From Roseiflexus sp. (GTDB lineage: Bacteria > Chloroflexota > Chloroflexia > Chloroflexales > Roseiflexaceae), in contig JAGHYV010000011.1 of assembly GCA_017743475.1 (NCBI GenBank), forward strand, positions 1-64,000: a DNA stretch of 64,000 nucleotides, in the 5' to 3' direction. Below, one piece after another: positions 34,475-45,470 of this stretch. A program made the translations under genes and the position numbers. The number at the start of each line of letters is the position of its first letter. Within the stretch, counting starts at the first letter, position 1. Below the pieces are notes generated by a model that had not been told where the DNA came from, did no database searches, and saw nothing but the letters and a program-made list of their open reading frames with translations.

Positions 34475-36997
34475 TCACCCCTCATATTCGCCAATCGTCG
34501 CCAGCTGCTGCCGGATAAACTGGCGAACCGCTTCTGCTGACTCCAGGGCAAGCGCCTGATCTGCCCATTGCTGCACATCCCTGAGCGTCAGTTGTCGCAC
34601 GAGTTCCTTCGCCTGCGGGATCGAACCCGGCGACATACTGAGTTTCTTTACCCCCAACCCAACCAGTATCGGCAAAGCCTGGCGATCTGCAGCCAGTTCA
34701 CCGCACACGCTCACCCATTTTCCGGCGGCTTCGGCGCTCTGCACCACCTGGCGAATCTGGATCAGGACAGCCGGGTGCAATCCATCCTGGAGATATGCGA
34801 CAGATGCATTGCCCCGCTCGGCGGCAAGGGTATACTGCGTCAGATCGTTGGATCCGATACTGAAAAAATCAACCTCAGGCGCAAAGATATGCGCCAGCAA
34901 AGCTGCGGATGGCACTTCAACCATCATACCGACATCCACGCGATCAGGAACTGGCACATGTTGGCGCCGCAATTCACTGATTGTTTCGTTCACGATTCTG
35001 CGCGCGCGCCGCCACTCGCCAATATCAGCGATCATGGGAATCATGATCTGTATCCGATGACCAGCGGCAGCACGCAGGATAGCACGCAGTTGCGGTTTGA
35101 ACAGATCGGGGCGGTCCAGACACAACCGGATCGCGCGTTGTCCTAAAAACGGATTGTCTTCGCGCGCCATGCGAAGATATGGCAGCGGCTTATCGCCCCC
35201 TACATCAAGCGTGCGGATAACAACTGGTCGCTGATCCATCAGACGAGCTATCGCATGATACACCTCAAACTGCTCATCCTCATCGGGCGCTGTTGTGCGA
35301 TCAAGAAAGAGAAATTCAGTGCGCAGCAATCCAACCCCGTCGGCACCGTTTGCTAGTGCTGCGCGTGCATCTTCGAGATTGCCAATATTCGCCGCAACCT
35401 CGATACCGATCCCGTCTTTCGTCACGGATGGCGCGGTACTCAACTTCTGCGCACGCTCATATGTGGAACGCCATTGCGCAAGTTTCGCTGCATAATCGGC
35501 AGTAGTCGACTCATCAGGATCAATCCAGACCAGACCAGCGAAGCCATCAATAATAAGCGGCGTCTCTGGTCGCACCTGTGCGACTGCCGGACCAACGCCA
35601 ACGACGGCGGGGATGCCAAGCGTGCGCGCCAGAATAGCGCTGTGCGAGGTTGAACTTCCGCGTTCAGTACAGATACCCAACACTTTTGCCGGATCGAGCC
35701 GTGCTGTATCAGACGGCGAGAGATCGTCAACAACGATAATCCCGGACTGATCGACATGAGCTACCGCAGTATGTCCCAGCAACTGCGTCAGCACCTGCAA
35801 CCCGACATCCCGAATATCGACGGCCCGTGCGCGCATGTAATCATTGTCGAGCGACTCGAAGACGTGCACTGTATCCTGCACGACCTGTTGCCATGCCCAC
35901 TCGACATTAACGCGCTCGTGCTCGACGATCTGCTGCACGCGGGACAACACATCGGGATCGCTGAGAAACATCAGGTAAGCATCGAAAATCGCCGCTTCGT
36001 AGGGATGTTGTCGCGCAATCTGATCACGCACCTGGCGTGTCCTGCTACGAATGGCTTCCAGAGCAACAGAAAACCGAACCATCTCGGTTGCAGGATCGTC
36101 GATAGCAAGACGCTCAACCTGTGGTTCAACATTGCGCAGCACGACTGCCCGACCAAGAGCGTACCCTGGCGAAGCGGCAATGCCGCGCAGCGCGCCCGGA
36201 GGCGCATCTGTGGATCGAAGCAGCGATAACGATCGCTGATCGGCTGACACATCATCGGCTTCTCCAAACTTCTCTGCCGCGAGTCGCTGCAATGCTGCCA
36301 GTGCTTCAGCGGCATCCTCACCAGTAGCAGAGACGACGATCTCGTCGTACTGCCGGATGCCAAGCGCTGCCACTGCGTTAAAACTTTTTGCATTGACCTG
36401 CCGGGGGTCATGAGCACGGGCAACACGAATATCGGATTGAAAACGACTCGCAGTCTGGACAAACAGCGCAGCCGGTCGGGCGTGCAGTCCCAGGCGATTC
36501 TCAACAATCAGTCGCACCTGCTGCACATCAGTCATAACTGGAGGCGCAGACGACAGTTGGGGTGCGGCAGCGTCTGTGCCCGCGCGCTGACTCAGACTTT
36601 CGATCTTGCTGGACAGCGCCCCTTCCGCTTCTGCTGCCACGCGATCAAGCGACGCACCCAGACTGGCCTGGATAGCGGCGGCGATGGCGCCTTCGACGAA
36701 CGGAGCGGCGCACAATCGTACACGATTCCGCTTTTCTTCTGCAAGAAAATCGAGCGCCATCTCCGCACTTAGCACCGCGCTGCCCAGATCCATCAGCACC
36801 AGTACGCCGTCGTCGCTATACACAGCTTCGATGGCATCACGGATCTTTGCCGCATCCGTTCCAAGCGTCTGTGATGAGTCGTCGGCGCCTGCTGCCACAG
36901 CAATTGAAACCTGCGACTGCTGCATTACCATGCGCATCATGTCCACGATCCCGGCAGCCAGCAGGGAACTATGCGAAACAAGGACGATATTCACCAT
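34475..36997 (-). CDS. Fused DhaM-HPr-Enzyme I phosphotransferase
   Basis: An 840-residue fusion of three phosphocarriers. Residues 1-128 are DhaM/EIIA-mannose type (VNIVLVSHSSLLAAG, His9 the phospho-site). Residues about 155-255 are HPr (RLGLHARPAALFV, His172). From about 283 comes PTS Enzyme I (GIAASPGYALGRAV; phospho-His in GSSTSHSAILAR; PEP-binding GADGVGLLRTEFLFLDR, IGSNDLTQYTLA and VCGELAAD). Phosphate passes from PEP through EI and HPr to DhaM and on to DhaL-ADP, which phosphorylates dihydroxyacetone bound to DhaK. Start 36997 gives the DhaM N-terminus; it overlaps the upstream methyltransferase. E. coli DhaM has a similar DhaM-HPr-partial-EI layout, whereas here EI looks full length, so no separate ptsI is needed. 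Confidence 0.9.
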   Translation of the reverse strand: MVNIVLVSHSSLLAAGIVDMMRMVMQQSQVSIAVAAGADDSSQTLGTDAAKIRDAIEAVYSDDGVLVLMDLGSAVLSAEMALDFLAEEKRNRVRLCAAPFVEGAIAAAIQASLGASLDRVAAEAEGALSSKIESLSQRAGTDAAAPQLSSAPPVMTDVQQVRLIVENRLGLHARPAALFVQTASRFQSDIRVARAHDPRQVNAKSFNAVAALGIRQYDEIVVSATGEDAAEALAALQRLAAEKFGEADDVSADQRSLSLLRSTDAPPGALRGIAASPGYALGRAVVLRNVEPQVERLAIDDPATEMVRFSVALEAIRSRTRQVRDQIARQHPYEAAIFDAYLMFLSDPDVLSRVQQIVEHERVNVEWAWQQVVQDTVHVFESLDNDYMRARAVDIRDVGLQVLTQLLGHTAVAHVDQSGIIVVDDLSPSDTARLDPAKVLGICTERGSSTSHSAILARTLGIPAVVGVGPAVAQVRPETPLIIDGFAGLVWIDPDESTTADYAAKLAQWRSTYERAQKLSTAPSVTKDGIGIEVAANIGNLEDARAALANGADGVGLLRTEFLFLDRTTAPDEDEQFEVYHAIARLMDQRPVVIRTLDVGGDKPLPYLRMAREDNPFLGQRAIRLCLDRPDLFKPQLRAILRAAAGHRIQIMIPMIADIGEWRRARRIVNETISELRRQHVPVPDRVDVGMMVEVPSAALLAHIFAPEVDFFSIGSNDLTQYTLAAERGNASVAYLQDGLHPAVLIQIRQVVQSAEAAGKWVSVCGELAADRQALPILVGLGVKKLSMSPGSIPQAKELVRQLTLRDVQQWADQALALESAEAVRQFIRQQLATIGEYEG

Positions 36998-37625
36998 AAT
37001 CGATACCAGTCCGCAACGTACAATCAGGACAGAGGACAACATCAACGATATCGTTCACTGAGTGCGCAGTGATCGATGCCAACTCAGGCGCGGTGAACCC
37101 TGTTGCGCCGCAGTGGCAGGCGTACCAGCCAGCCCGATCTGGATCGTACTGCTGGTTATGACCGAGATCGATCACCTCCACGCCCATTTTCCAGCGCGCA
37201 TTTGTCACCAATTTTCGACAACCAGCCTGCTTTAAGCGCTTCACATAAGTCGCAAAATGGTCACGAGTGCAGTGACGCATAAGCAACACTGCCAGGGTCA
37301 GATCATCTGGCAGCTGCCAGACCAGGGCATCGACATTGACCACAACCAGGTTGGGATATGGTTCAATCAATGGCAACACACGCTGAACAAGGTCACAGTT
37401 TCGCTCGACTGCATAAACCCGGCGAACAATCTGCGCCAGCTGCCGTGCCAGTCTCAGATCGCCAGCACCAATATCGACCACAACATCGTCTGCATCCACC
37501 TGCGCCAGGACGTACTGATACGTCTCGTCATCGTATGGCACCCACACGCTTTCCCAATCGATGGCGTCCATCGGCCGCAATTGTTGGCGAAACAAAAGCC
37601 AGCATTCGATGAGTAAAAAGCGCAT
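36969..37625 (-). CDS. Class I SAM-dependent methyltransferase-like protein with zinc-type Cys
   Basis: A 218-residue protein. A Rossmann glycine-rich motif I (VVVDIGAGDLRLARQL) and YAVERN, with NLVVVNVDALVW further on, mark an AdoMet-dependent methyltransferase fold. The C-terminus has CHCGATG and CPDC, a likely metal-binding Cys set not typical of small methyltransferases. The substrate is unknown. It sits between glpK and the phosphotransferase fusion, overlapping the latter by 29 bp, so it belongs to the glycerol transcript but its role there is unclear. A start at 37571 (MDAIDWESVW) is also possible; neither has a clear ribosome site. Confidence 0.65.
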   Translation of the reverse strand: MRFLLIECWLLFRQQLRPMDAIDWESVWVPYDDETYQYVLAQVDADDVVVDIGAGDLRLARQLAQIVRRVYAVERNCDLVQRVLPLIEPYPNLVVVNVDALVWQLPDDLTLAVLLMRHCTRDHFATYVKRLKQAGCRKLVTNARWKMGVEVIDLGHNQQYDPDRAGWYACHCGATGFTAPELASITAHSVNDIVDVVLCPDCTLRTGIDYGEYRPCFA

Positions 37626-37724: not shown

Positions 37725-39221
37725 TCAGTCAACCCAATCGAAGGTACGGGTCACTGCTTTTTTCCAACCGCTATAGAGACGTTCACGGGTTGCGCTATCC
37801 ATCTGCGGCAACCACTCGTGATCCTTGCCCCAGTTGGCACGCAGATCCTCGACTTCTTTCCAGAAGCCGACTGCGAGACCAGCGGCGTAGGCAGCGCCCA
37901 GCGCCGTTGTTTCCGACACGGTTGGACGAATAACCGGCACACCCAGAATATCAGCCTGGAACTGCATCAGGGTGTTGTTGAAGACCATGCCGCCATCAAC
38001 TTTGAGCGCCGTCAGCTCGACGCCCGAGTCCTTATTCATCGCATCGAGCACTTCGCGTGTCTGATAGGCGGTCGCCTCGAGCGCAGCGCGACAGATGTGA
38101 TTCTTCGTAATATAGCGGGTCAACCCGACGATAACACCTCGCGCGTTGCTCTTCCAGTATGGCGCGAACAGACCTGAGAACGCTGGCACGATGTAGATGC
38201 CGCCGCTATCTTCAACTGCATTGGCGTACTCCTCGATATGCGAGGAGAAATCGAAGAAGCGCAGATTATCGCGCAGCCACTGCACCAGTGCGCCGGTAAT
38301 GGCTATCGAGCCTTCCAGACAGTACACTGTCGGTTGATCACCGATCTTATACCCTACAGTCGTCAGCAAACCGTTCTGTGATGGTACCGGTTTGAGACCG
38401 GTGTTCAGCAGCATGAAGCATCCGGTTCCATACGTATTCTTCGCCTCACCAACGCTGAAACATGTCTGACCGAAGAGCGCTGCCTGCTGGTCGCCGAGGT
38501 CGCCAGCGACTGGAATGCCCTCAAGCGCGCCGACCGCAGTTCCGTAGACCGTAGCCGACGGCATGATTTTCGGCAGCATTGCGCGTGGCACGCGCATGAT
38601 GTCCAGGATTTCGTCGTCCCAATCAAGTGTCTCCAGATTCATTAGCATGGTGCGCGAGGCGTTCGACACATCGGTGATGTGGACACCGCCATTGACCCCA
38701 CCGGTCATATTCCAGATCAGCCAGGTATCGATGTTGCCGAAGAGTACTTCGCCCTGCTCAGCTTTTTCGCGTACTCCTGGCACATTATCGAGGATCCAGG
38801 TGATCTTTGGACCGGAGAAGTAAGTCGCAAGCGGCAGACCGACTTTGGGGCGGAAGCGATCCTGCCCTCCGTCCTGCGCCAGTTGATTGCAGATCTGGTC
38901 CGTGCGCGTGTCCTGCCAGACAATCGCGTTGTATACCGGCTTACCGGTTGCCTTCTCCCACACCACGGTCGTTTCGCGCTGGTTGGTCACGCCGACAGCT
39001 GCAATCTCACTGCGTTCCACTCCCGACTTGCGCAACGCGCCATCGATCACCTCCTGCGTGCGTGCCCAGATTTCCAGCGGATCATGCTCGACCCAGCCCG
39101 GTTGAGGATAGATCTGGGTATGTTCCTTTTGATCCACCGCGACCACGCGCCCTGCATGATCGAAAATCATGCAGCGCGTACTCGTCGTTCCCTGGTCGAC
39201 TGCTGCCACGTATTTCGCCAT
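37725..39221 (-). CDS. glpK: Glycerol kinase
   Basis: A 498-residue FGGY-family kinase. [19 protein letters not shown] at the start, [78 protein letters not shown] and [21 protein letters not shown] are colinear with GlpK. It makes glycerol-3-phosphate from glycerol and ATP in the cytoplasm. Start 39221 has AAAGGAG upstream. It follows dhaL by 39 bp, so glycerol and dihydroxyacetone use are served by one transcript. Its C-terminus is normal. Confidence 0.97.
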
Positions 39222-39260
39222 AGCCACAACTCCTTTGCACACCAGCAACACTGCTGGCGA

Positions 39261-39896
39261 CTACTCTGTCGTCCAGGCTTCCTGCATCGCCTTGAACATC
39301 AAGTATGAAGAAGTTGCCCCTGGATCTTGATGCCCGGCGCTTCGTTCCGCCAGGTACGAAGCCCGTCCTCGTCGCGCTACCATTGGAATAGTATTCTTCA
39401 TCCCCTGTTCGGCTGCGACGACGCTCTGGCGCAACGCTTCCCGCTCATCAAGGCCATCGGCAACTGCCTGTTTGAGCGCATTCAGCGCTGGTACAAGCGC
39501 ATCGACCATCGTCTTGTCGCCGACATTCGCCTTCCCACGTGCCATCAGGCTGACGATAGCACCGTCGATGGCTGTGACCCAGTCGGCAAGCGATAGTTCC
39601 ATCTTGTTCGCCGTGGCGACACCCGCCTGTAAGAAGAATGTCCCGTACAACGGTCCACTTGCGCCTCCGACGGTCTGAACCAGCGTCATACCGACCGACT
39701 TCAGAATCGTACCAATATCCTTATCGGCAACTGTCGGCAACTTTCCCAGCACCGCCTTGAACCCGCGGTCCATGTTCACGCCGTGGTCGGCATCGCCGAT
39801 GCTCGAGTCGAGTTGCGTGAGATAATCCTTGTTTTCCGCCAGTATCTGACTATAGACCCTGAGCCAGGACAGAACGTCGTCGCGACTGATCGGCAT
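39261..39896 (-). CDS. dhaL: PTS-dependent dihydroxyacetone kinase, ADP-binding subunit DhaL
   Basis: A 211-residue DhaL. SIGDADHGVNMDRGFKAV holds the Asp cluster that binds Mg-ADP, and VGGASGPLYGTFF, LVPALNAL, GMKNTIPMVARRGRASYLAERSAGHQDPGATSSYLMFKAM complete the family pattern. In this system ADP stays bound and is rephosphorylated by DhaM, which fits the phosphotransferase fusion in the same operon. It lies 3 bp after dhaK. Confidence 0.95.
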   Translation of the reverse strand: MPISRDDVLSWLRVYSQILAENKDYLTQLDSSIGDADHGVNMDRGFKAVLGKLPTVADKDIGTILKSVGMTLVQTVGGASGPLYGTFFLQAGVATANKMELSLADWVTAIDGAIVSLMARGKANVGDKTMVDALVPALNALKQAVADGLDEREALRQSVVAAEQGMKNTIPMVARRGRASYLAERSAGHQDPGATSSYLMFKAMQEAWTTE

Positions 39897-39899
39897 AGA

Positions 39900-40901
39900 T
39901 TACACCCCCCACCGCAGTGCAGGAGTCTTAACCGGAGCGTCCCACAACCTGATCAGTTCGTCGTCCATTTTCAGCAGCGTGATCGAGCAACCCGCCATCT
40001 CCAGCGAGGTAATGTACGGTCCGATCAGGTTGCGTACCACCTTAAGACCCGCTTCGACTGCGATCTCATATGCCTTCCGATACACCACATAGAGTTCGAT
40101 CAGCGGGGTACCGCCCATGCTGTTGACAAACAGCAGCACATTGTCACCCGCGCGGAACGGCAAATCGTTCAGGATCGGCTCCATCAGCATCTCAGTGATC
40201 TCGTCGGCAGGTTTGAGCTTCATACGGGTGCGGCCCGGTTCACCGTGGATGCCGATGCCGATCTCCATTTCGTCGTCGGGCAGATCGAAAGTTGGCTTGC
40301 CTGCGTGTGGTACGGTGCAACTAGTCAGCGCCATACCCATGCTGCGCCCCCAACCATTGACCTTGCGGCATATCTCAGCCACTTCTCTGAGCGAGCGCCC
40401 CTCTTCAGCCGCTGCGCCACAGATCTTCTCTGCTAGCACAGTGACGCCTACCCCGCGTCGGCCCGCAGTGTAGAGCGAATCCTGCACTGCCACATCATCA
40501 TTCGTCACAACCGATTCTACCTCAATTCCTTCCGCACGCGCCAGGTCGGCTGCCATATCGAAATTGAGGATGTCGCCGGTGTAGTTCTTGACGATGTACA
40601 GCACGCCAGCGCCGCCGTGGACCGTTTTCGTCGCTTCAAACATCTGGTCGGGAGTGGGGCTGGTAAAGACAGCGCCAGGACAGGCAGCGTCCAGCATGCC
40701 CATACCGACGAAACCTCCGTGCATCGGTTCGTGACCAGATCCACCACCGGAGACGATCGCTACTTTGCCCTGCACTGGTGCATCGGCACGATAGATAAAG
40801 TTCGGATCGTAATGCACCTTAACCAAATCGGGATGCGCATATTCAATGCCCTTCAACTCCTCGACAACCACGTCTTCGGGTTTGTTGATTAGCTTTTTCA
40901 T
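39900..40901 (-). CDS. dhaK: PTS-dependent dihydroxyacetone kinase, substrate-binding subunit DhaK
   Basis: A 333-residue DhaK. The N-terminal [59 protein letters not shown], then [13 protein letters not shown], whose His is the residue that binds dihydroxyacetone covalently as a hemiaminal. Start 40901 has AGGAG in good position. It hands dihydroxyacetone to phospho-DhaL to yield dihydroxyacetone phosphate for glycolysis. It lies 109 bp after glpF. Confidence 0.96.
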
Positions 40902-41009: not shown

Positions 41010-41732
41010 TCAGAAAGCCCCCAGAGCAACATACAACGCTGCCGCGATGACGCCGCCGATGATCGGACCAACAACCGGTATCCAGGCATATTCCCAGTCG
41101 CTGCTTCCCTTGCCGGGGATGGGCAGCACTGCGTGAGCAATGCGAGGACCGAGATCACGCGCAGGATTGATGGCATAACCGGTCGTACCGCCCAAAGAGA
41201 GACCGATTACCCACACCAGAAACGCCACAGGAATGATTGCCAGCGCACCAAGACTACCTTCCGGAATAACCGGTCCATCAATTGAAAGGATGCCGAAAAC
41301 CAGCACAAAGGTGCCAATGATCTCACTGACTAGGTTCCACGCCGCATTGCGCACCGCAGGAGCAGTACTGAACACGGCGAGTTTCAACCCTGGATCATTA
41401 GTTTCCGCCCAGTGCGGATAGTAATGTAGAAAGACGAGCACAGCGCCGATAAACGCACCGATGAACTGTGCACCAATATACATTGGCGCCATGGCTGCTT
41501 CAAACTTGCCAGCGATAACTAGACCGATGGTCACTGCCGGATTCAGGTGCGCGCCGCTGATTGCTGCAACGGAATACGCGCCGACAAAGACTGCCAAAGC
41601 CCACGCCGTGGTGATCACAATCCACCCGCCACTGTTGCCTTTCGTCTTGCTCAATACCACATTGGCAACAACGCCGTCGCCAAGCAAAATGAGCAACATG
41701 GTCCCGATCACTTCGCCGAGAAACGGTGACAT
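41010..41732 (-). CDS. glpF: Aquaglyceroporin (GlpF type)
   Basis: A 240-residue MIP channel with six hydrophobic segments and both NPA boxes: SGAHLNPAVTIG and AINPARDLGPR. The Asp after the second box (NPARD) and the surrounding GTTGY favour the glycerol-conducting branch over strict water channels. Start 41732 is preceded by GGAGG. It heads the transcript of glpF, dhaK, dhaL, glpK and the phosphotransferase fusion, and would admit glycerol and dihydroxyacetone by diffusion. Confidence 0.94.
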   Translation of the reverse strand: MSPFLGEVIGTMLLILLGDGVVANVVLSKTKGNSGGWIVITTAWALAVFVGAYSVAAISGAHLNPAVTIGLVIAGKFEAAMAPMYIGAQFIGAFIGAVLVFLHYYPHWAETNDPGLKLAVFSTAPAVRNAAWNLVSEIIGTFVLVFGILSIDGPVIPEGSLGALAIIPVAFLVWVIGLSLGGTTGYAINPARDLGPRIAHAVLPIPGKGSSDWEYAWIPVVGPIIGGVIAAALYVALGAF

Positions 41733-41939
41733 TGCATGGTCCTCCGTAGATATGTAGATACAGGTGAACAACCCACGCAGCGGCTTTTTTCGCCCAAAAT
41801 CTGAATGTCCACAGATTGCGGATTACTTCCCCGAAATAAGCGACATTTCATATTCTAGACGAAAAAAAGCTGCTGGCGGAGATAGAAACGGCTATCTCTA
41901 CACTATCGTCTGTTCAGGCGCTACCTTATCTAGAATCGG

Positions 41940-41955
41940 CGAAACGCCTGTTTCG
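41940..41955. promoter_or_regulatory. GAAAC-GCCT-GTTTC palindrome in the glpF leader
   Basis: A perfect inverted repeat CGAAAC-GCCT-GTTTCG lies in the ~390-nt stretch between the predicted promoter and glpF. It uses the same half-site letters (GTTTC/GAAAC) as the two boxes upstream of the promoter, but in the opposite arrangement and with a shorter spacer. It may be an additional binding site or a short mRNA hairpin. Confidence 0.45.
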
Positions 41956-42125
41956 AAGTGCAAAACTCCTAGAAGTGCTGGATAACCGTTTTTCAATGTC
42001 GTAGTTCAACCTTCGAATATGACCGACCGTTGAAAATAGACCACGTCTACCGCATCCTGGCTGGCAAAAACAGGCTTTTCGTCAATCAATCAGAGAATAT
42101 GGCGACATGGAGGAACTGTGGGCTT

Positions 42126-42155
42126 ATTATACACTAACTGTTCAAAAAGTGTCAA
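42126..42155 (-). promoter_or_regulatory. Strong sigma70-type promoter for the glpF-dha operon
   Basis: On the minus strand TTGACA (42155-42150), 18 bp, then TATAAT (42131-42126): both hexamers are perfect consensus. Transcription would begin near 42119 and leave a leader of about 390 nt before glpF. The 18-bp spacer is one above the optimum, which often goes with activator dependence. Confidence 0.8.
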
Positions 42156-42171
42156 TTAGAGACGCGCAAAT

Positions 42172-42217
42172 TGTTTCACACTAAAACAACACAACACTAT
42201 TGTTTCGATATGAAACA
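42172..42217. promoter_or_regulatory. Two TGTTTC-N5-(G/A)AAACA operators
   Basis: TGTTTC-GATAT-GAAACA (42201-42217) is a perfect palindrome and TGTTTC-ACACT-AAAACA (42172-42188) a one-mismatch copy. Their centres are 29 bp apart, lying at about -61 and -90 from the predicted start. They lie between the regulator gene and the promoter, the natural place for activator dimers. The likely protein is the DhaR-type regulator encoded next door, but this is inference from position. Confidence 0.65.
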
Positions 42218-42345: not shown

Positions 42346-44346
42346 TTAGCGGAGGGGATTCTTCTTGAAATCGTCGAGGTTGATATTCGCAGCTTTAAGT
42401 TTGCGCCAGAGGGTCGTGCGGCCAATGCCAAGCGCGTGCGCCATGCGGGTGACATTTCCCCGATAGGCGCGGGCAGCGCGCAGAATGGCGTCATATTCCG
42501 CTTCCTGCAATGCCGGAACGTAGTCTGGCGGCGACGATGATTCTGTCAGGCGCTTCCTGATCGCATCGGGGAGGTGCCTGGCTTCGATCACACCCGTATC
42601 GGTCAGCAACGCTGCCCGCTCCAGCGCACTCTCCATTTCACGAAGATTGCCAGGCCAATGGTAGTTGCGCAAAAGCTGCTGCGCCTCATACGACACTTCA
42701 ACCGACCGGCCAATCTGGCGACAGATGCGTTTCAAGGCATCACGGATGAGGAGTGGCACATCCGCCGGACGATCACGCAAGGGTGGCATACGTATCATGA
42801 TTCGGCTCAGCGCGTAGTACAAATCGGCACGAAAATCACCATGCAGCACAAGATGATCCAGGTTTGCGGCAGTTGTCACGATGAAACGCACATCGACATG
42901 GGTAATGCTCCACCCACCAAGGCGCATCACTTCACCAGTTTCGATCACCCGTAACAATGCCGCCTGCATTTCGAGCGGCAGCGCTTCGATCTCTTCAAGA
43001 TGAAGCGTTCCGCCGTGCGCCAATTCGAATTTGCCAGGTCGTCCGCGCCGCCCGTTACTGAGGAACATATCTGTTTCGTAGCCTAAAAAATCACCCACAA
43101 TCATGTCACGCGGCAGAACACGACAGTTAACGGTGACAAACGGTCCTTCGGCGCGCGCACTCTCGTTGTGGATGGCGCGTGCCAGCACACCCTTGCCGAC
43201 GCCGCTCTCCCCAACAATCAACACCGGCACGTTGCTGCGCGCCGCTGCCTGCGCTTGCCGTCGCACCTGATGGATCGCGCTCGATTCACCAATAATGCTG
43301 GCAAAGGTAAAGGATGACCGATTGCCCACCATATGCTGCACCAATCGACGCACCTGATCAATCTGACGCAGCATTATAATGCACCCCTCAATATGTTTCG
43401 CCTCATCGATCTGCCATTGTATTGGAAACAGGCTCATCAAACACCCGATCTGCAATCCTTTGACCCGAAAACTGACTTCAGCGTCGATCAACGATGCGTG
43501 CCGATGCATTGCTTCCAAAAGGACTGGTGGCATTTCCACCGCAGCGCTCAATGGACGCCCAACGACCGATTCCAGTTTGAGATCGAGGATCTGCGCTGCT
43601 CGTGTATTCATGTACAGCACCAGACCTTCCCGATCGCACATAATCAATCCTTCTGAAATTGCCTCGACAATCGCATTTAACTGAGTTCGCTGCGTATTCA
43701 ATTCACTGAAGAGTTTATCAGCTTGCAATATATGCTCAATCGCACGTGCTGTTGCGTGTACCATGCCAAGCGTAGACATATGGCTGACCGATATATGACA
43801 GGCCATTCCCAAAATGCCAATCGGTTTTCCGTCCCAATTGTACATTGGCGCGGCTGAGGTGCTGAGTGAATGGAATTGTGCAAAAAAGTGTTCTGCACCT
43901 GCAACCTGGATCGGACACCGTTCGTACAAGGCAAGACCAAACGCATTCGTTCCTGCATGCCCTTCGCTCCAATAGCATCCCGGTCTTAATCCCAACGCCG
44001 CTGCCTGCTCTTGCATTGCAGCATCGCCGATCACTTCGAGCACACATGCCGATGCGTCCAGCAGAACAACGACGTACCCCGCGTTTTCCACAAGTTGATG
44101 GATGTCTTCCATAAAAGGTCTCACCAGTGTAATCAGGTGAGCCAGTTTGTTGCGCCGGTCTTCAAGCTCCGCTGCCGATAGAGCCGGAAGATCGGCGTTA
44201 GCGAGGGGATTGTAGCGTAATGCGCAGCGTTGCCACGACATTGCTACAATGGGATCGAGACTTGGATCCAATACACCAGTCGTGACAAACTGGCGCCAGA
44301 CGGCAGAAAGCCAGTTCCAATCAACGGGGTAGCGTGATGGTTGCAT
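42346..44346 (-). CDS. DhaR/AcoR-type regulator: GAF, PAS, AAA+ and Fis HTH
   Basis: A 666-residue regulator. Residues about 70-220 are a GAF-like sensor (AcoR/DhaR N-terminus: SWQRC, GTNAFG), 220-330 a PAS domain, 340-580 an AAA+ ATPase with Walker A GESGVGKG (379-386) and Walker B-like GGTLHLEEI (445-453), and the C-terminus a Fis helix-turn-helix (GNVTRMAHALGIGRTTLWRKLKA). In place of the GAFTGA loop it has DMFLSN (426-431), and the second arginine-finger box reads DLYYALS, so sigma54 remodelling is unlikely. E. coli DhaR, which controls dhaKLM from a sigma70 promoter, is the best model; DhaK and DhaL may be its co-regulators. It faces the same way as the glp-dha operon, 613 bp upstream. 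Confidence 0.88.
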   Translation of the reverse strand: MQPSRYPVDWNWLSAVWRQFVTTGVLDPSLDPIVAMSWQRCALRYNPLANADLPALSAAELEDRRNKLAHLITLVRPFMEDIHQLVENAGYVVVLLDASACVLEVIGDAAMQEQAAALGLRPGCYWSEGHAGTNAFGLALYERCPIQVAGAEHFFAQFHSLSTSAAPMYNWDGKPIGILGMACHISVSHMSTLGMVHATARAIEHILQADKLFSELNTQRTQLNAIVEAISEGLIMCDREGLVLYMNTRAAQILDLKLESVVGRPLSAAVEMPPVLLEAMHRHASLIDAEVSFRVKGLQIGCLMSLFPIQWQIDEAKHIEGCIIMLRQIDQVRRLVQHMVGNRSSFTFASIIGESSAIHQVRRQAQAAARSNVPVLIVGESGVGKGVLARAIHNESARAEGPFVTVNCRVLPRDMIVGDFLGYETDMFLSNGRRGRPGKFELAHGGTLHLEEIEALPLEMQAALLRVIETGEVMRLGGWSITHVDVRFIVTTAANLDHLVLHGDFRADLYYALSRIMIRMPPLRDRPADVPLLIRDALKRICRQIGRSVEVSYEAQQLLRNYHWPGNLREMESALERAALLTDTGVIEARHLPDAIRKRLTESSSPPDYVPALQEAEYDAILRAARAYRGNVTRMAHALGIGRTTLWRKLKAANINLDDFKKNPLR

Positions 44347-45287: not shown

Positions 45288-45470
<183 letters not shown>

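Follow-up and report, generated by a model that had tools for sequence, protein, structure and literature searches.

How is the glpF-dha operon of this Roseiflexus genome controlled, and by which protein? We examined a single window, by which we mean the whole 64,000-nt stretch of DNA that was analysed. Its minus strand carries, in order, dhaR, glpF, dhaK, dhaL, glpK, an rRNA-dimethylase-like gene and a dhaM-HPr-enzyme I fusion. The glycerol facilitator gene glpF (MIP family; 41010–41732) has a start, ATGTCACCG at 41732, that is conserved in congeners. dhaK (39900–40901), dhaL (39261–39896) and the glycerol kinase gene glpK (37725–39251) scored above the cut-offs of TIGR02363, TIGR02365 and TIGR01311, respectively. 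The KsgA/Erm-like methyltransferase (MTase) gene between glpK and dhaM (36969–37625; PF00398) also occurs in genomes G002 and G005, and there was no match to it between glpK and dhaM in G003 (L031). The last gene (34475–37000) fuses dhaM to HPr and to a complete enzyme I, a phosphoryl donor (TIGR02364, TIGR01003, TIGR01417 and Pfam); the E. coli DhaM model spans a shorter part than this fusion, and the genome has a further enzyme I gene on contig C187. With dhaK, dhaL and dhaM, the operon holds the PTS-type dihydroxyacetone kinase genes that mark a DhaR target. Elsewhere in the window, an O-acetylhomoserine sulfhydrylase-like gene is preceded by a SAM riboswitch (RF00162, 84 bits; 45288–45467, plus strand).

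The operon, from glpF through to dhaM, is predicted to be driven by a sigma70-type promoter, TTGACA-N18-TATAAT, at 42126–42155 on the minus strand (−35 at 42155–42150; −10 at 42131–42126). An earlier note on this DNA had described a perfect-hexamer promoter here; its coordinates and spacing hold, and 12 of the 12 consensus positions are matched. This is the sole site with at most one mismatch in the 64-kb window, where shuffled sequence gave an expectation of 0.06. The 18-bp spacer is suboptimal yet conserved, and TTGAC(A/G) with the same spacer is found in ~18 related glpF upstream regions, the window included. Transcription would start ~7 nt past the −10, at ~42119, giving a 5′ leader of ~387 nt (41733–42119, minus strand).

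Upstream of the TTGACA lie two predicted DhaR boxes on the minus strand, a distal one, TGTTTCATATCGAAACA (42217–42201), and a proximal one, TGTTTTAGTGTGAAACA (42188–42172), with their centres 29 bp apart. Palindromes with this spacing had been claimed near −61 and −90 and, with the start taken as ~42119, that is where the proximal and distal centres fall. At that putative start site, the arrangement is the one of sigma70 class I promoters, i.e. −35 and −10 hexamers with an activator site near −61. It is also the one of an E. coli-type operator, in which two TGTTTCA-N3-TGAAACA boxes stand ~30 bp apart upstream of a kinase operon. When the region between dhaR and glpF was shuffled 300 times with its dinucleotides kept, no shuffle reached the box score. 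Across the 4.97-Mb genome the box pattern with at most one mismatch has 11 sites, against 2 for a reversed control pattern, and nowhere but in the window did that scan find two of them together. The nine remaining single sites all fall within or close to long open reading frames; with eight of the nine inside plausible genes, the single boxes are poor candidates for a wider DhaR regulon. At the ninth (L122), the only overlapping open frames are of doubtful coding value. The window dhaR itself had no matching box near its start.

The predicted boxes are conserved in sequence, in spacing and in distance to a sigma70-type promoter, and they are common to E. coli dhaK. When the window is aligned with two other Roseiflexus loci (L031 and L032), both boxes and the promoter are kept in an intergenic region that has otherwise mostly diverged. 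Two boxes of this N3 type (TGTTTCA-N3-TGAAACA), 31–32 bp apart, lie between dhaR and glpF in those two loci, in Anaerolineae (L055 and L056) and in Thermoflexales (L058). The proximal N3 box is centred 46–50 bp upstream of the −10 (49 bp in the window, as in relatives), a range given without L056, whose boxes have no clear promoter beside them. Boxes between dhaR and glpF are also present in most Chloroflexaceae loci, and boxes upstream of glpF in most of the Chloroflexota loci examined. In Chloroflexaceae and related loci an N4 type occurs, with the box centre 61.5–63.5 bp upstream of the −10. In L049 and L114 a different hexamer pair came out on top in the automatic ranking; taking TTGACG-18 there gives the same distance, 63–64 bp. 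Because Chloroflexaceae mostly have one N4 box, with stray half-sites ~13 bp further upstream, the two-dimer geometry is not universal. In L034 and L035, where dhaR is present, the boxes are weak (11/14). In E. coli K-12 (L063), AGTTTCAATATGGAACA and TGTTTCACTATGAAACA lie 31 bp apart upstream of dhaK; a hexamer scan of this locus did not find the dhaK promoter. The literature searched, which did not take in Bachler et al. 2005 (the paper cited for E. coli DhaR and dhaKLM in PMC3162934 and PMC6643234), did not give this E. coli box sequence as a published DhaR site. The equivalent E. coli genes are preceded by the same box pair, and the window would therefore hold an old form of an already known switch, not a new one.

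The adjacent dhaR gene (42346–44346, minus strand) encodes a regulator with GAF/PAS, AAA+ and Fis-type HTH domains, as judged from NCBIfam and Pfam models and alignment. It passes the NCBIfam DhaR model NF008485 with 562.2 bits (curated cut-off 551), and PF00158 places it in the sigma54-activator family. The earlier note had the GAFTGA missing from this protein, correctly: ETDMFLSNGRRG is aligned where NtrC-family proteins have GAFTGA, and the Walker A motif GESGVGK is retained. Overall identity to E. coli DhaR is 32%, and the HTH core, LGIGRTTLWRK, is identical in the two. The N-terminal sensory domain resembles the solved domain of E. coli DhaR (PDB 4lrx, residues 30–340, E 1.1e-33; entries 4lry and 4lrz). 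The E. coli protein, too, has lost GAFTGA and is sigma70-dependent (PMC3162934). The sigma54 gene rpoN (PF04552) is absent from the window genome (100% complete) and from five congeners, with positive controls in E. coli and B. subtilis. Given this absence and the consensus promoter, the window DhaR would likewise use sigma70.

Our reading is that 42126–42217 would be the DhaR operator-promoter of the glpF-dhaK-dhaL-glpK-(MTase)-dhaM operon, working by class I activation; to this explanation as a whole we give a probability of roughly 0.8. DhaR dimers would bind each box through the Fis-type HTH, a step for which the comparisons give good support, and induced DhaR, from ~−61 and ~−90, would contact the housekeeping RNA polymerase at the TTGACA-18-TATAAT promoter. 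The inducing signal may be dihydroxyacetone turnover, sensed via DhaL and DhaK acting on DhaR; in E. coli, the dihydroxyacetone signal reaches DhaR through DhaL and DhaK. The earlier note's interpretation is largely borne out. A DhaR without GAFTGA beside a sigma70-type promoter, boxes that are conserved across Chloroflexota and at E. coli dhaK and that track dhaR, and the lack of rpoN speak for it; its third dyad as an operator and its claim of completeness are not supported (see below).

The boxes could be DhaR sites from which DhaR mainly represses or modulates an intrinsically strong promoter. As both hexamers are consensus (12/12), the promoter might fire without an activator, and there is room for such a role. 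However, the boxes are upstream of the −35, not over it, and at a constant distance; relatives keep the same boxes with weaker −10 elements; and E. coli dhaKLM is reported to be under the control of DhaR, a factor activated by DHA (PMC6643234). We consider a mainly repressing or modulating DhaR unlikely.

Palindromes alone do not name a protein, and another regulator, e.g. one of the GlpR type or a global factor, might occupy the boxes assigned here to DhaR. Against this, the boxes adjoin dhaR, match the pair upstream of E. coli dhaK, form the only pair in the genome and are absent where dhaR is absent. More generally, the predicted boxes track the presence of dhaR. In two Chloroflexus genomes (G045 and G047; loci L113 and L114) dhaR lies ~250–300 kb from the operon (the G047 distance assumes a circular chromosome), and glpF keeps a box of 13–14/14. 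The one informative genome for the joint loss of regulator and box is G051, where glpF-dhaK-dhaL-glpK is present, dhaR is not, and no box was found upstream; the best candidate, at 10/14, was equalled or beaten by 194 of 300 shuffles. We rejected G002 (L112) as a second control of this kind: a transposase-like ORF, probably an IS element, abuts a truncated glpF there, and dhaR, the promoter and the glpF start have been replaced together. In G031 dhaR is present and cut by the contig end. Most of dhaR, glpF, dhaK and dhaL is missing from the G005 locus (L033); with G002, this makes at least two losses of dhaR within the genus. The dhaR reading frame of L039 (G054) has one in-frame TGA, and its glpF keeps a 13/14 box. 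Binding of the boxes by a protein other than DhaR seems to us improbable.

The earlier note also placed a third dyad with the same half-sites at 41940, within the leader, and this might be a further DhaR operator, acting for instance by looping or as a roadblock. The sequence, CGAAACAGGCGTTTCG (41955–41940), does contain GAAAC and GTTTC. Its half-sites, however, are in the opposite order and differently spaced (GAAAC-N4-GTTTC), and in the alignment with L031 and L032 the dyad is not conserved as DNA, whereas an RNA hairpin at the same place is. We rejected it as an operator on these grounds and see little prospect for that role. Instead, 41940–41955 is better read as arms of a predicted RNA hairpin, CAGGCGTTTCGCC-GATTCTAGATAA-GGTAGCGCCTG (41915–41950, minus strand; conserved 12-nt loop at 41937–41926), which folds alike in three congeners. 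Each of them has the 12-nt GAYTCYRGATAA as apical loop and a 2-nt bulge in the hairpin, and the changes in the stem are compensatory; the z values, from three sequences only, are −2.6, −2.1 and −2.8. Among nine genomes searched, the block TCGCYGAYTCYRGATAARG, which overlaps the dyad, is matched exactly nowhere but in this leader of the three congeners.

As a member of the sigma54-activator family (PF00158), DhaR could be taken for a sigma54 enhancer-binding protein, with the sigma70-like hexamers as incidental; such a protein works with rpoN and through GAFTGA, and with no rpoN in the genus and no GAFTGA in DhaR the idea is refuted for this genome, short of an rpoN overlooked by the assembly, which makes it highly improbable. 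A chance origin of palindromes and promoter might be argued from a pattern that is not rare at up to two mismatches (153 genome matches, 73 for the control), but it has a negligible probability against the conservation of sequence, pairing and position in many genomes and a score that the shuffles never reached. On the comparisons made here, the window holds a real, ordinary and well-conserved candidate DhaR operator-promoter in a lineage without sigma54.

To call the control region complete, as the earlier note did, is too strong, because there are hints of structure in the leader of ~390 nt, which may bring in a second level of control. The glpF leader probably carries structured RNA. Searched against Rfam, the window leader and one Chloroflexus leader gave sub-threshold chance matches only. 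In eight Chloroflexus genomes the glpF leader contains one copy of an element of ~134 nt (L113:11338–11466, minus strand; also in L114, L118, L119, L047, L049, L039 and L141). In a model-fitted alignment of this element, which leans towards structure, 97.3% of cells are paired and eight pairs are changed on both sides, six of them in helix 4. It has a strongly covarying hairpin arm, and its covariation score exceeded those of all 500 shuffles, in a test not corrected for relatedness. The Chloroflexus RNA model gave no convincing match on the window leader. Among 41 Chloroflexaceae genomes it was found only in Chloroflexus, apart from weak matches; the weak match in L042, from another genus, is in the right place. 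Tentatively, the glpF leaders of the order may carry an undescribed cis-regulatory RNA, represented by the window hairpin and the ~134-nt Chloroflexus element, that would act after initiation as a layer on top of DhaR control; we hold this as a possibility somewhat short of even odds. Many of the leaders of L034–L050 contain stretches like AAAGGAGG and AAAGGGGG, at some distance upstream of the glpF start. In B. subtilis, the glpFK operon is regulated by GlpP through antitermination in a long leader. The present system differs, since no GlpP (PF04309) scored over the cut-off in 60 genomes, including the window genome and its congeners, and we rejected GlpP antitermination of the glpF leader for this reason.

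The window resembles the E. coli DhaR/dhaKLM system in having a DhaR ortholog by NCBIfam model, with no GAFTGA and the same HTH core, and two 17-bp boxes 29–31 bp apart upstream of dihydroxyacetone kinase genes. In E. coli, however, dhaR is divergent from dhaK, with the boxes between both, and glpF and glpK are outside the operon; in the window, dhaR precedes the operon and has the same orientation, glpF and glpK are among the operon genes, and the leader measures ~390 nt. Activators of the TyrR and HupR type differ from DhaR in their sensory domains, targets and operators. What they have in common with it is the sigma54-activator fold, an altered GAFTGA and the use of sigma70 (PMC3162934).

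With the operon under DhaR, the glycerol facilitator and glycerol kinase would come under DhaR in this lineage as well. The conserved box, common to Chloroflexota and E. coli, could be used to find DhaR targets in other genomes. The locus would also be an example of a sigma54-family activator working in the sigma70 manner in a lineage without rpoN, and there the cases resembling C. aurantiacus, where dhaR is remote and the box is kept, offer a clean test. Through the leader RNA, a second control of glycerol uptake may come to light.
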